Below, in pieces: positions 645 to 61,013 of a stretch of 64,000 nucleotides of DNA. Position 1 is the stretch's first letter. Each line of letters starts with the position of its first letter. The position numbers and the translations under genes were made by a program. Source of the stretch: Peribacillus frigoritolerans (lineage in GTDB: Bacteria > Bacillota > Bacilli > Bacillales > DSM-1321); NCBI RefSeq assembly GCF_001636405.1, contig NZ_KV440950.1, forward strand, positions 1,139,712 to 1,203,711, read 5' to 3'. The notes beneath the pieces were generated by a model. It searched no databases. It saw nothing but the letters and a program-made list of their open reading frames with translations, and was not told the DNA's origin.

Positions 645-724
645 GCTAACAGGTGCGTTAGCTGAAGATCGGAGCTGTCTTTAAGGCAGCTCTTTTCTTA
701 TGGCACTAACGGGGCAGGTTGATT
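645..724 (+). repeat. Three-hairpin intergenic element, full copy
   Basis: GCTAACAGGTGCGTTAGC (5' hairpin), then AGCTGTCTTTAAGGCAGCT with T-rich tail (central terminator-like hairpin), then ACTAACGGGGCAGGTTGATT (3' hairpin, decayed). It lies between the divergent germination gene and the cupin gene, so here it is not behind a + strand gene. Confidence 0.85.
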
Positions 725-858
725 CAAGAGTGTTGTTTGGTCTTTGTTCAACAATTGGACCATTTTGTGGAAAATCAGCAGAAACTTTTGAGGTCTTAAT
801 CAAAATAGTAATTAATCTATGGGAGTTGTAAAATAAAGGTAAGAATAGTTCTGGGGGG

Positions 859-1230
859 ATTTATATCAATTATAATGCTATTAATCTTAGCGAGAAACTG
901 TCCAAATTCAGTGAACACTGGTCGCCTAAAGTCATTGGTGAAATAAATGACTATCAGTTTAAATTAGTTAAGATTCTGGGGGATTTTGTATGGCACGATC
1001 ATAAAGACACCGATGAGGCATTCATCGTGATAGACGGCGAGATGTCCATCGCATTCCGCGATGGAGAGGTTAAACTTTCCAAAGGAGAAATGTATGTGAT
1101 ACCAAAAGGTGTGGAGCATAAGCCTTATGCAGAAAAGGAATGCCATATAATGCTGGTAGAGCCTAAAGGTGTAATCAACACTGGTGAAACTAATTTTAAA
1201 CTAACTGCTGAAAATAATATATGGATTTAA
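859..1230 (+). CDS. Cupin-domain protein, start codon uncertain
   Basis: The frame reads NYNAINLSEKLSKFSEHW, then WHDHKDTDEAFIVIDGEMSI and VIPKGVEHKPYAEKECHIML. These are the two conserved cupin motifs of a small single-domain beta-barrel protein of about 120 residues; the histidines and glutamate of WHDHKDTDE are usual metal ligands. No ATG, GTG or TTG lies in frame between the stop at 829 and the conserved N-terminus. The best site is an ATT at 859 (or ATC at 865) right after a GGGGGG ribosome binding site at 853-858. It may use a rare start, or have lost its ATG by mutation. Substrate unknown. Confidence 0.7.
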   Translation: MYINYNAINLSEKLSKFSEHWSPKVIGEINDYQFKLVKILGDFVWHDHKDTDEAFIVIDGEMSIAFRDGEVKLSKGEMYVIPKGVEHKPYAEKECHIMLVEPKGVINTGETNFKLTAENNIWI

Positions 1231-1300
1231 ACCAATGATTTTCCAGTTACTATCTTTGGATTAAGATATAAAAGGAAGTTACATATTTTCCGCGACGGGA

Positions 1301-1327
1301 GCGATTCTTTAATAAGAATCGCTTTTC
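1301..1327 (+). terminator. Rho-independent terminator after the cupin gene
   Basis: GCGATTCTT-TAAT-AAGAATCGC followed by TTTTCTT: a perfect 9-bp stem with a T tail. Confidence 0.8.
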
Positions 1328-1352
1328 TTAATGAACAAATAGAAATAAACAT

Positions 1353-1571
1353 GAGAGTTTAATTGGGAGCTGGTTTACTTATCCCATGCTGTTGCTGGCA
1401 CCTGTGCTTGGTCCTGCTGCTATGATACGCGATCAGAAGGCAGGTGCTGCTAACGTTTGGGTATATGAGCAGATCTTCGTAATGGTCTCACTAGTTGGAG
1501 TCGGCATCTGCCTGCCTTTCGCCTTAGCTGGATACGTTCATATTGAAAAGGGAAGATTAGTGAATTCATAA
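1353..1571 (+). pseudogene. Membrane protein fragment (C-terminal piece)
   Basis: The frame continues upstream of the ATG at 1386 without a good start or ribosome binding site. It encodes two hydrophobic stretches (MLLLAPVLGPAAMI and FVMVSLVGVGICLPFALAGY) and ends GRLVNS. About 60-70 residues remain. It looks like the last part of a longer multi-spanning membrane protein left after a deletion. I do not recognise the family. It could be a real two-helix mini-protein starting at 1386, but the lack of a ribosome binding site argues against that. Confidence 0.4.
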
Positions 1572-1646
1572 CGGGTGCTTTATTTCAATTACAAGGGTTG
1601 CTGCGGCAGCCTTTTTTCTTATGGCACTAACGGGGCACGATAGTTT
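1569..1646 (+). repeat. Three-hairpin element, variant centre
   Basis: AACGGGTGCTTTA arm, central hairpin GGTTGC-TGCG-GCAGCC with TTTTTTCTTATGG, then ACTAACGGGGCACGATAGTT. The centre differs in sequence from the copy at 645 but keeps a terminator-like shape. It directly follows the membrane protein fragment. Confidence 0.8.
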
Positions 1647-58332: not shown

Positions 58333-58349
58333 GCCAGGATATGCTTTCT

Positions 58350-58440
58350 TCAATGAGTGTGGTTGCTTCGGCAGCCATTTTTTCTTGTCGAACTGACGAA
58401 CGATTAACCCCCTTGAGGTCCTTAAGGGGTTTTAGCTGTT
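58350..58440 (+). terminator. Element centre and terminator
   Basis: GGTTGC-TTCG-GCAGCC ATTTTTTCTTG (about 58360-58386), then AACCCCTTGAGGTCCTTAAGGGGTTTT at 58406-58432. Confidence 0.65.
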
Positions 58441-58603
58441 TATGCAAACTAGATTTGTATAACGCAGTCATTCGATCGGTCTTCTTTAACGGGGTAGTTT
58501 ATTTTCCTAATTTAATGGACAAATTAATATAAGTTGAAGTTATGCAATGGTACGTTCAAATCAGGTATATGTTTGTCAAAAAACATATAGAAGTTGGAGA
58601 GAA

Positions 58604-59959
58604 ATGAATAGTAAAATAGAGAACTTAACAAACCGACTATCTGCTGCTCAAATCATCGTTTTTTATTACCTGGTAGCTGTAGTGGTTTCAACCATTTTAT
58701 TGCTGCTTCCCATTACTCAAACGCAGAATGCAGAGCTCTCATTTATTGATGGAGTATTCATTTCTATTAGTGCGGTAACTGTAACGGGATTATCCACGGA
58801 AGATGTAAGCCAGCTGCTCAGTGTTCCCGGTACGTTTATTTTTTCCATCATCCTCCAGTTTGGTGGAATTGGGGTCATGGCTTTCGGAACCATACTATGG
58901 CTTGTATCAGGAAGGAAAATAGGACTCAGGGCAAGAATACTCATGACGACAGAACAAAACAGCCCCACTTTTTCCGGGATTGTTCGATTCATACGAATGA
59001 TCTTCTTTTTCTTTGTCATGATTGAGCTATTAGGGGCTATTGTCTTCGGTACATATTTTTTGAAGTATTTCCCAACATGGCAAGAGGCTTATTTGCAGGG
59101 TTTCTTCGCCTCTGTGTCTGCTACGACAAATGCCGGTTTTGATATCACTGGAAAATCACTGATTCCGTTTGCAAACGATTATTTTGTCCTGACCCTTAAT
59201 ATAATACTCTTTATTATCGGATCCCTTGGGTTTCCTGTTTTAATGGAGGTAAGTCAGTGGCTCAGGCATAAGGGAAAGATGCCATTCCGGTTCTCCTTGT
59301 TCACAAAAATTACAACCGCAACTTTTTTCATACTGATCGTAATTGGAGCCATTCTCATTTATCTGTTTGAGTACAGTCATTACTATGTGGAAACGACTTG
59401 GCATCAATCCTTTGTCCATTCTTTGTTTTATTCGACATCTTCAAGGACTGGCGGAATGGCGATCAGCGACGTCAATCAATTTTCAGTACCTACCATTTTG
59501 TTACTGTGTATTTTTATGTTCATAGGGGCATCCCCCAGCAGTGCTGGGGGCGGGATAAGAACCACCACGTTTGCTGTGATGCTGCTTGCCATTTACAACT
59601 ATGCGAAAGGGAACAGAACAATAAAAATATTCAAAAGGGAGATCGATGATGAAGATATCATCAAGTCATTCATCGTTTTCACAACAGGTATGATCCTGTG
59701 CAGTGTGGCAGTTGTCATTCTTGAATGCATTGAATCTGCCTTTTCCCTAACGGAAATTTTATTCGAAGTTTCCTCTGCTTTTGGCACTGTAGGCCTTTCG
59801 CTTGGCATTACACCGGAATTGAGTACTGCCGGGAAGGTCGTAATCATGACTTTAATGTTTATAGGGAAAATCGGGATGTTTACCTTCTTATTCAGTATGG
59901 GGGGCAAACCATTAAAACATGCGTATCACTATCCTAAAGAGCGCATCATTATAGGATAA
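58604..59959 (+). CDS. Potassium uptake protein, KtrB/KtrD (TrkH family)
   Basis: 451 residues from ATG at 58604 (TTGGAGAG upstream). Four membrane-pore-membrane repeats with filter glycines in SAVTVTGLST, SATTNAGFDI, TSSRTGGMAI and SSAFGTVGLS. Length and the SPSSAGGGIRTTTFAVMLLA segment agree with KtrB/D subunits that pair with a KtrA/KtrC RCK protein to import K+ (with Na+). No ktrA-like gene is adjacent, as is usual for ktrD. Confidence 0.9.
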   Translation: MNSKIENLTNRLSAAQIIVFYYLVAVVVSTILLLLPITQTQNAELSFIDGVFISISAVTVTGLSTEDVSQLLSVPGTFIFSIILQFGGIGVMAFGTILWLVSGRKIGLRARILMTTEQNSPTFSGIVRFIRMIFFFFVMIELLGAIVFGTYFLKYFPTWQEAYLQGFFASVSATTNAGFDITGKSLIPFANDYFVLTLNIILFIIGSLGFPVLMEVSQWLRHKGKMPFRFSLFTKITTATFFILIVIGAILIYLFEYSHYYVETTWHQSFVHSLFYSTSSRTGGMAISDVNQFSVPTILLLCIFMFIGASPSSAGGGIRTTTFAVMLLAIYNYAKGNRTIKIFKREIDDEDIIKSFIVFTTGMILCSVAVVILECIESAFSLTEILFEVSSAFGTVGLSLGITPELSTAGKVVIMTLMFIGKIGMFTFLFSMGGKPLKHAYHYPKERIIIG

Positions 59960-60128
59960 AAAAAGGTACTGCTGCAAAGGTTGTTGTCTTTTTCTTGATC
60001 GAGGAAAAATTCAAGCTGAGGGGCATCGTACCCAATTATGTACATTGCTTTTATTTTTCGCTAAAATAAAAGGTATAATGAATGCTTATATAGTTTATTG
60101 ATGATAAAAGATAATGAGGTAGAAAAAA

Positions 60129-60869
60129 ATGATTGCAAAAACAGAAGATGATTTTAATGGTTTGAAGGAAATTGGCAAAATTATTGCCTCCATTAGAGAT
60201 GAATTGGTACAAAGAACAATTCCGGGCATAACGACCAAAGAACTTGATGATATAGCCGGGGAACGTTTAGAACAAGCGGGTGCAGTTTCAGCTCCAAAAG
60301 GTGAATATGATTTTCCTGGCTATACTTGCATCAGCCTAAATGATGAAGTGGCGCATGGCATTCCGGGTGATCGGGTTATTCGTGAAGGGGATATAGTAAA
60401 TATAGATGTATCTGCTTCAAAGAACGGTTATTTCGCAGATACAGGAATCTCATTTGTAGTAGGCGAAGGAGAAGAAGTATTAGCGAAATTATGCGACGTC
60501 GCCAAAAAGGCATTTGAAGCGGGCCTTAAGAAAGCAAAACCCGGTTCCAAAAAAAGCAGAATCGGAAAAGCGGTGTTCGAAACAGCGAGACAGCATGGAT
60601 TCACGGTTATCAAAAACCTTACAGGACATGGTGTTGGACGTAGAATACACGAAGCACCTGACCATATTTGTAATTATTATGATCCATGGGATAATGACAT
60701 ATTAAAGGAAGGGATGGTTATCGCATTCGAACCATTCATCTCAACCTTTGAAGAAGAGGTATTCCAAAAAGAAGACGGTTGGACCTATGCTACAGAAAAA
60801 AGCTTTGTAGCTCAAGTGGAACATACGATTATCCTTACTAAAAATGGACCGATCATTGTCACGCTTTAA
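60129..60869 (+). CDS. Methionine aminopeptidase, type I
   Basis: 246 residues, ATG with AATGAGGTAGAAA. Metal ligands: Asp93 (IVNIDVSA), Asp104 (YFADTGISF), His in LTGHGVGRRIHE, Glu in IAFEPFIS and Glu in QVEHTIIL; substrate His76 in EVAHGIPG. Complete pita-bread fold. It removes the first Met from new proteins; the gene is a second copy type (YflG-like), because the essential map normally lies in the ribosomal protein operon. Confidence 0.95.
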   Translation: MIAKTEDDFNGLKEIGKIIASIRDELVQRTIPGITTKELDDIAGERLEQAGAVSAPKGEYDFPGYTCISLNDEVAHGIPGDRVIREGDIVNIDVSASKNGYFADTGISFVVGEGEEVLAKLCDVAKKAFEAGLKKAKPGSKKSRIGKAVFETARQHGFTVIKNLTGHGVGRRIHEAPDHICNYYDPWDNDILKEGMVIAFEPFISTFEEEVFQKEDGWTYATEKSFVAQVEHTIILTKNGPIIVTL

Positions 60870-60960
60870 TTCAAACATAGACAGAAAAGACGATATAAGT
60901 AGTTCGCCTGAAGTAACATATAAACTCGTAACAGTTTAAAAGAATGTTTCTCGCATCTAA

Positions 60961-61013
60961 AGGAGTTGCTTTTGCAGCTCCTTTTCTTATCGAACTAAAG
61001 GGGCAGGTTAAGC
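60961..61013 (+). repeat. Three-hairpin element without 5' arm
   Basis: AGGAGTTGC-TTTT-GCAGCTCCT TTTCTTATCG then AACTAAAGGGGCAGGTTAAGC. Confidence 0.8.

Follow-up and report, generated by a model that had tools for sequence, protein, structure and literature searches.

Directly repeated dyads in Peribacillus frigoritolerans as probable core sites of a recombination system that moves single-gene cassettes

A stretch of 64,000 nucleotides from the 5.46 Mb genome of Peribacillus frigoritolerans (positions 1139712-1203711; the window in what follows) carries dozens of copies of a short repeat, which a preliminary description had taken for an element of three hairpins with all copies in one orientation. 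These repeats very probably serve as the core sites at which a site-specific recombination system moves single-gene cassettes. A site would be built of two inverted arms, about 14 bp long, that enclose an asymmetric spacer of 6 bp (type H1) or 7 bp (type H2), and like sites would mostly exchange with like, inside the core. The DNA between two sites would be lost as a segment, with one hybrid site left behind, or gained, and repeated gain would build arrays in which all sites point one way. A Xer-like tyrosine recombinase of about 280 amino acids (aa) is the likely enzyme, and its gene would itself be a cassette between sites. The direction of the sites appears to be tied to replication, probably since exchange or array stability depends on the strand exposed at the fork.

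Repeat sites, cassette boundaries and exchange points

With AACTAACGGG at no more than one mismatch, 30 matches were found in the window, all on the + strand, where 2.5 were expected. Weight matrices were built from 417 H2 and 273 H1 sites in 119 named loci of other records, the window being excluded. At a score of at least 10 they gave 49 sites on the + strand (26 H2 and 23 H1) and one H1-type match on the - strand (39280-39313), which is the reverse reading of a + strand H2 copy with a shortened spacer. No match at this score was found in 30 dinucleotide shuffles, and no Rfam family was found in the window at gathering score. The repeats and their confinement to the + strand are thus real. 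The three-part element of the preliminary description corresponds to H1, a terminator-like stem with T-runs, and H2; a complete H1 then H2, 57-77 bp from start to start, is present in nine places (one of which includes the reverse reading at 39280), and the remaining matrix-listed sites in the window are single H1 or single H2.

Both site types are dyads of about 35 bp with an asymmetric spacer of 6-7 bp. The H2 consensus from 522 copies is CTTATTG-AACTAAC-GGGGCAG-GTTAGTT-GAATAAG, with arms of about 14 bp; the 7-bp spacer GGGGCAG is among the most conserved stretches of the site, and in the arms both sides vary at positions -1/-4 and 21/24. In H1 (366 copies) the arms resemble those of H2 and the spacer is the 6-bp GGGTGC. 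An H2 lies 20-49 bp downstream of 177/366 H1 sites, mostly at 35-44 bp, and 165/366 have no H2 within 400 bp. Sites with more than 1-2 spacer changes, contexts that contained N or touched a contig end, and identical contexts were dropped before the site counts.

The sites were described as hairpins, a word that fits the symmetry of these near-perfect dyads rather than an established structure. At the most variable mirror positions no covariation was found between left and right arm (H2, z = 1.0 and 1.2; H1, -0.4 and -0.8), and when 225 H1-H2 composites were examined for an attC-like fold, no positive covariation was obtained for outer and inner arms, with no z above 1.5. With so little pairing covariation, a selected local hairpin is unlikely, and the symmetry more likely reflects a dyad that a protein binds on double-stranded DNA.

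When the genome's own arrays were compared with the 119 loci from other records, 132 similar blocks of at least 200 bp emerged, many with both ends at sites; here no identity limit was set, and the block comparisons otherwise dropped high-scoring segment pairs (HSPs) under 200-250 bp or under 75-80% identity. One example is the cassette at 12266-13221 (+), which carries two SMR-family genes and is bounded by an H2 site at 12258-12292 and an H1 site at 13191-13224, both found in the matrix list and by block comparison. A block of Peribacillus frigoritolerans T7-IITJ (L141) matches it at 98.95% identity and has unrelated flanks, and the comparison showed that the terminator beyond H1 can be replaced while the gene block keeps its own sites. 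Among four genomes, with each pair compared in both directions, 187/550 internal ends of shared blocks were within 30 bp of a site, against a random mean of 23.9 and a maximum of 40 in 200 trials. Site intervals longer than 250 bp had a median of 937 bp, and one gene was the commonest content (133/266 intervals, counted in the window, L017-L019, L025 and L206-L225); 10/389 sites fall inside an open reading frame (ORF). The arrays are thus made of mostly single-gene cassettes with directly repeated sites. The cargo of the window, from a scan of 40 of its 105 ORFs, is accessory: GNATs, HAD and alpha/beta hydrolases, DinB, PhzF, SMR and MFS transporters, isochorismatase, subtilase and others.

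For shared cassettes, the position of exchange was mapped at 123 upstream and 199 downstream junctions, which were retained if both genomes had a site within 32 bp in the same relative direction. At upstream junctions the right arm goes with the cassette (identity at +8/+11 of 0.68/0.67, random 0.34/0.31) and left-arm position -8 is unlinked (0.34, random 0.30). At downstream junctions the left arm goes with the cassette (-8/-11, 0.76/0.80; random 0.30/0.41) and the right arm is unlinked (+8/+11, 0.31/0.33). The switch of linkage between the arms falls within the site core. The site type was the same in both genomes at 114/123 upstream and 173/199 downstream junctions, where about half would be expected from the site frequencies, and was unlike at 35/322. 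As judged from these alignments, exchange would take place inside the core and like with like, as in a tyrosine-recombinase cassette system.

Loci that lack a segment were examined in 18 pairs with a collinear insertion (limits of 120 bp and 80% identity). Six of the pairs have like sites at both ends of the insertion and one site in the other genome; they represent four separate segments of 2.6-7.3 kb, with H2-H2 five times (three share one insert) and H1-H1 once. The single remaining site is a hybrid in all five like-site pairs that were aligned. The longest segment lies in the window at 13663-20961 (+), between an H2 site at 13646-13680 and an H2 site at 20944-20978 that was identified by the matrix list and the empty-locus alignment; Bacillus sp. 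ISL-34 (L127) has retained the left arm of the first and the right arm of the second as one hybrid H2, and the 7.3 kb in between are absent. We infer that such segments pass through circular intermediates. At single-H2 exchange points the shared sequence amounts to about 21-35 bp. The notion of one three-hairpin element is therefore not upheld, given that H1 and H2 act as separate exchange points and the terminator is one of several inserts found there.

Three further features were seen at or beside the sites. In 28 matches, some of which represent the same place twice, the right arm of H2 is replaced by a non-dyad right half (GGGGCAG followed by CATTCCTGTAAT or CATTCCTGTTTG), which may represent a further type of site or an end that has decayed; it was seen in L046, L092, L098, L105, L124 and others, and at 9217-9251 (+) of the window, where the matrix list has an H2 left half fused to CATTCCTGTAAT. 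A third dyad, TTCAACAATCGGGCGCGATTGTTGAA-like and also with a GGG spacer, is found beside H1/H2 in L202, L077:1118-1139 and L093:251-272. Ahead of both H1 and H2 there can be a conserved non-coding left flank (TTTGTGAAGAAATGTACTTA-like, family D9; window 9281-9335, 17441-17495, 27033-27087, 40408-40462 and 53421-53475), which looks like a gene-less mini-cassette.

The candidate recombinase

The window contains at 13376-13618 (+) a decayed fragment of a tyrosine recombinase, a broken C-terminal remnant from which about 580 bp are missing in comparison with the G028 copies. It is preceded by an H1-like site with the spacer AGGTGT (13249-13282, matrix score 12.3) and by the remnant of a block that occurs upstream of Peribacillus recombinase genes (13286-13340), and the H2 site at 13646-13680 lies 3' of it; H1-like AGGTGT sites are also found ahead of Peribacillus recombinase genes. 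A second copy of the upstream block (45751-45805, 91% to 13286-13340; repeat family D19) follows another H1-like site at 45706-45739 (score 20.7). Among the site loci, those of Viridibacillus arenosi and of two Paenisporosarcina hold full-length relatives; in Paucisalibacillus the frame is shorter.

The family is about 280 aa long, is Xer-like and has 1181 relatives at E <= 1e-30. The catalytic residues R142, K166/K169, H232, R235, H258 and Y267 (P0001 numbering) are invariant in 25 sequences, and the family thus has R, K, HxxR, H and Y in a domain order like that of XerA/XerC/XerD. The P0001 frame scored 224 bits with NF040815 (cut-off 220) and the best solved relatives are the XerC-like 4a8e and XerD 1a0p, the recombinase being only about 29-31% identical to the genome's two Xer-like proteins. 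A fold search was set aside because the AlphaFold model had a mean predicted local distance difference test (pLDDT) value of 61.5.

A site was found close to the recombinase gene in 21/57 family loci, in 13 of these on both sides, where the 57 loci are all that were fetched, with partial, broken and distant copies included and several being near copies of each other. The order in the direction of the sites was H1, gene, H2 in 11/13 two-sided loci, and also in L093, L094 and L111; the order is not invariable, since L180 and L202 carry H1 on both sides. When partial, contig-end and distant copies were left out, the site centre was 44-55 bp past the recombinase stop in 18/31 loci. The first four loci had suggested that the recombinase always points opposite to the sites, as intI does, and this was refuted by loci in which it points with them. 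In some distant relatives, diverged CTAACGGG-like sequences were seen by eye at a comparable place. No site was present in the 3-3.5 kb loci (2.6 kb for the contig-end L166) of ten other tyrosine recombinases of the same genome (0/10), which were therefore rejected as drivers. Among 398 genomes of the class Bacilli, 23 have sites, at least 27 have the enzyme (a lower bound, given that at most 6 candidates were scored per genome) and 9 have both (Fisher's exact test, p = 3e-6, shared ancestry ignored).

Given that the host has retained a decayed recombinase only, its arrays would be idle now or served in trans; many arrays may be relics, or may be served by plasmid copies such as those of Sporosarcina and P. 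simplex plasmids. On plasmid pSP10-266k of Sporosarcina psychrophila (L273) a recombinase gene and eight sites, all on one strand, are found together with merA/merR, NUDIX and GNAT genes, and group II intron genes are cut by both ends of the stretch. An exact H2 site is present in L108, a record named Arthrobacter beigongshangensis, and a recombinase in plasmid CP053689.1, named Arthrobacter citreus; these names may be wrong, or transfer may be wide. Two tyrosine recombinases of 287 aa that are 98% identical (L167 and L168; G000:C1:3624631 and 3853486), presumably TnpI-like, are found in loci without H1/H2 sites.

Site direction and layout of the window

Judged by GC skew in sampled stretches, the origin of the genome lies within 12-280 kb and the terminus within 3.09-3.36 Mb. 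With this assignment 48/50 sites of the genome with at most 2 mismatches point with the fork (right arm, 31 + and 0 -; left arm, 17 - and 2 +). A further 30 matches with 3 mismatches were excluded because a reversed control pattern also matches there (16 matches up to 3 mismatches).

A larger set comprised the 119 named loci, 20 array stretches from three relatives and, from this genome, the window and 13 other stretches, with about a dozen genus names. In this set 1108/1128 sites are on the strand with positive skew, which is the leading strand if skew is taken as a proxy for replication direction; chromosome-wide mapping covers this genome alone. The named loci had been chosen for an exact H2, several come from the same genome and a few are near-identical; the stretches L023, which holds one lone - site, and L031-L033 were left out of the count. 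With looser settings, 8/489 sites in the arrays of this genome and its relatives were against the expected direction, and with the sites masked before the skew was calculated, in a different site set from named and relatives' loci, the count was 1231/1282 in 137 loci. Both strands carry sites in 5/140 loci with at least two sites.

The direction of the sites does not follow that of the genes. In 16 loci where coding majority and skew are in conflict, 93 sites follow skew and 0 follow the genes, and in the genome's own arrays the neighbouring gene opposes the site in 16/119 cases upstream and 28/119 downstream. Copies that had been reported beside oppositely pointing genes were confirmed: the H2 site at 40425-40459 (score 27.3) is located between two - strand ORFs, and the H2 site at 12258 between a - strand ORF and a + strand gene pair. 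The preliminary description had proposed a link to replication direction or a strand-specific spreading mechanism, to be abandoned if reverse copies were equally common or if orientation tracked the nearest upstream gene. Given 48/50 sites with the fork, 1108/1128 on the leading strand and 93 to 0 in favour of skew, neither was observed and the proposal is well supported.

The asymmetric spacer accounts for the common direction within an array; the agreement with replication across separate arrays needs more. According to PMC11023631, in Vibrio integrons the recombining bottom strand is on the leading-strand template, which limits cassette loss. If top and bottom are matched by site layout, the arrangement here would be the same, and this analogy suggests that exposure of one strand may matter, even though the sites do not resemble folded ones.

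The sites of the window not yet given, all on the + strand, are as follows, with matrix scores in parentheses. A complete H1-terminator-H2 is formed by H1 at 637-670 (17.8) and H2 at 697-731 (38.8). It is followed by H2 at 1618-1652 (37.3; a weak H1 is at about 1568) and 2742-2776 (15.3), H1 at 3325-3358 (13.5) and H2 at 3383-3417 (22.5), H1 at 5697-5730 (35.3) and H2 at 5756-5790 (44.9), and H1 at 6098-6131 (32.8). Beyond the last, an ORF without Pfam match (6329-7237) contains three overlapping copies of a 208-nt direct repeat at 6680-7196. H2 at 8509-8543 (31.1), H1 at 9298-9331 (31.9), a diverged H2 at 9355-9389 (16.6), H2 at 10406-10440 (48.5) and H1 at 10749-10782 (47.6) precede the SMR cassette. 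Within the 7.3-kb segment are H1 at 15171-15204 (30.0), a diverged H2 at 15248-15282 (19.6), H2 at 15743-15777 (52.1), and H1 at 17458-17491 (26.8) and 18456-18489 (42.7).

Further downstream are H1 at 21467-21500 (47.6) and H2 at 21526-21560 (48.4), H1 at 26937-26970 (22.7) and H2 at 27050-27084 (29.1), H1 at 27680-27713 (27.1) and H2 at 28127-28161 (18.5), H1 at 28376-28409 (22.3), and three H2 sites at 29378-29412 (13.6), 32272-32306 (18.0) and 33033-33067 (26.5). H1 at 36070-36103 (21.6) and H2 at 36128-36162 (28.3) are followed by H1 at 39134-39167 (19.2) and 39222-39255 (35.2) and by the H2 copy at 39280-39313, the shortened spacer of which is presumably the result of damage. After the site at 40425 come H1 at 43294-43327 (22.3), H2 at 43353-43387 (23.5) and 45210-45244 (35.5), and H1 at 46874-46907 (15.4) and 53438-53471 (23.2). 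The left end of a cassette shared with L058 is an H2-like copy at 57010-57040, which is outside the matrix list, has a shortened spacer and is presumably damaged as well; the last sites are H2 at 57462-57496 (29.3), H1 at 58158-58191 (34.1) and H2 at 60986-61020 (19.2).

Alternative explanations and wider meaning

Several observations weigh against a recombinase-driven cassette system. Homology-driven exchange between neighbours that are otherwise unrelated must also fall in the shared core, so that the crossover map alone is no proof of a recombinase; a finer map is noisy at the least variable positions, though with the same trend, and at upstream junctions left-arm position -11 is partly linked (0.58, random 0.41). 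Away from any recognised site are 363/550 HSP ends, and among the 18 collinear insertions 11 have no recognised site at one or both ends (two of these being internal deletions of the recombinase gene) and one has unlike sites (L133/L222). Some arm positions do covary, namely the H2 pairs -2/22 (z 5.9; 4.2 in composites) and 5/15 (z 4.2); these and the H1 pairs 1/18 (z 3.5) and 5/14 (z 5.0 in composites) may be subfamily effects (|z| >= 3.5). As for the enzyme, 36/57 family loci, partial, broken and distant copies among them, have no nearby site by the H1/H2 patterns, and the genome itself has no family match at E <= 1e-40, only the fragment. Within the genus an enzyme match, broken copies included, does not predict the number of sites (it is present in 10/22 genomes with at least 10 site matches and in 7/14 with fewer). 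A recombinase is nevertheless favoured because the shared sequence is short, exchange is frequent, the site type agrees and the enzyme is linked to the sites; from this we infer that it catalyses the exchange.

The homology-based alternative takes H1 and H2 for the two ends of a small tyrosine-recombinase transposon (H1-recombinase-H2), of which H1-terminator-H2 would be a non-autonomous derivative; gene blocks would then change by homologous recombination between the many elements. This is unlikely, although it has several points in its favour: in most loci the end order is the same in both forms (11/13 two-sided loci plus L093, L094 and L111), complete elements of 80-90 bp would provide some homology, and broken recombinase copies are common. 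It does not account well for the many single H1 or H2 sites with unrelated neighbours, for exchange at single H2 sites that share about 21-35 bp, for gene blocks that retain their sites while the terminator beyond H1 is replaced, or for the mostly conserved site type at junctions.

That the arrays are classical integrons, or clusters of attC sites lacking an integron-integrase (CALIN), is considerably less likely still. H1-terminator-H2 would here be an attC site that IntI recombines as a folded single strand. The initial idea came from arm pairing: the layout resembles the attC order R''-L''-loop-L'-R' with unpaired spacers, and the right arm GTTAGTT is near GTTRRRY. As in integrons, especially the sedentary chromosomal ones of Vibrio, there are long direct arrays of mostly single accessory genes with one site direction and a tyrosine recombinase, and the orientation relative to replication obeys the same rule as in Vibrio integrons (PMC11023631). 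However, no protein of the genome exceeds the IntI cut-off (TIGR02249, 265 bits) and four site-linked recombinases score 83-97 bits; since no protein reaches the integron-integrase model, the system was not filed as an integron. The integrase scores, together with the absence of positive attC-like covariation in the 225 composites, disfavour the attC reading, and so do single dyads that serve as exchange points and sites that are conserved in sequence and fall into two spacer types. The system also differs from integrons in that the recombinase is itself a cassette with either gene direction, there are several separate arrays in the genome, and neither an attI nor an array head with an intact intI-like gene was recognised in it.

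It is highly improbable that the sites are polar signals for chromosome organisation, similar to FtsK-orienting polar sequences (KOPS) or SpoIIIE recognition sequences (SRS) and read by a DNA translocase, with the cassettes incidental. The leading-strand bias is strong and GGGCAGG in the H2 core is close to the E. coli KOPS motif, but the sites are long dyads of two spacer types, and the motif is clustered in islands with no match at up to 2 mismatches between 1.21 and 3.56 Mb, and is the breakpoint of gene exchange. Ordinary intergenic terminators or repeats like repetitive extragenic palindromes (REP) can be practically dismissed, although the middle of the composite is like a terminator, a stem with T-runs after it: site direction opposes 28/119 downstream and 16/119 upstream genes, arm covariation is small, and cassette boundaries and hybrid sites are present.

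Among other known systems, pdif modules are genes flanked by XerC/XerD sites, for example on Acinetobacter plasmids. What the present system has in common with Xer/dif and pdif is a simple Xer-like tyrosine recombinase together with short dyad core sites on either side of single genes; here the arms are longer (about 14 bp), the 6-7 bp spacer is asymmetric, dozens of sites form direct arrays and the enzyme is encoded beside its own sites. Chromosomal XerC/XerD-dif has a single terminus site and a housekeeping enzyme, whereas the sites here number dozens away from the terminus and the family was found in at least 27/398 genomes of the class. Core sites of the Cre/loxP type have arms of 13-14 bp and an asymmetric spacer of 7-8 bp that sets direction; short inverted arms and a direction-setting spacer are common to both, but the system here forms natural cassette arrays, on chromosomes as well as on plasmids, and has two site types and an enzyme of the XerA/XerD branch. 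Insertion sequences of the IS200/IS605 group and REP with their associated tyrosine transposases (RAYT) have short symmetrical repeats and a strand preference linked to replication; in contrast, the linked enzyme here is a tyrosine recombinase and not a Y1 transposase (Y1 genes were not searched for), and the sites are exchange points between unrelated genes.

In the literature searched, which left out most subscription journals, no description of this system was recognised. Integrons are only very occasional in Firmicutes according to the IntegronFinder 2.0 article (PMC9024848), where a single complete one, in Limnochorda pilosa, is joined by a few CALIN. We tentatively suggest, at somewhat less than even chances, that Bacillota have a gene-capture platform of their own, apart from integrons, with a self-mobile Xer-like recombinase cassette, two largely incompatible site types, chromosomal and plasmid arrays of swappable genes, and a direction set by the fork, since exchange or retention would depend on which strand is single-stranded in replication. 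New recombination tools could be derived from the two site types. Plasmid copies, one of them beside merA/merR, would be a vehicle for the system, and much of the accessory gene content in the array regions of Peribacillus, Viridibacillus, Sporosarcina and relatives could be explained if cassette arrays can arise by a second route. With two independent cassette systems that obey one orientation rule, the replication-strand hypothesis of array stability would become directly testable.

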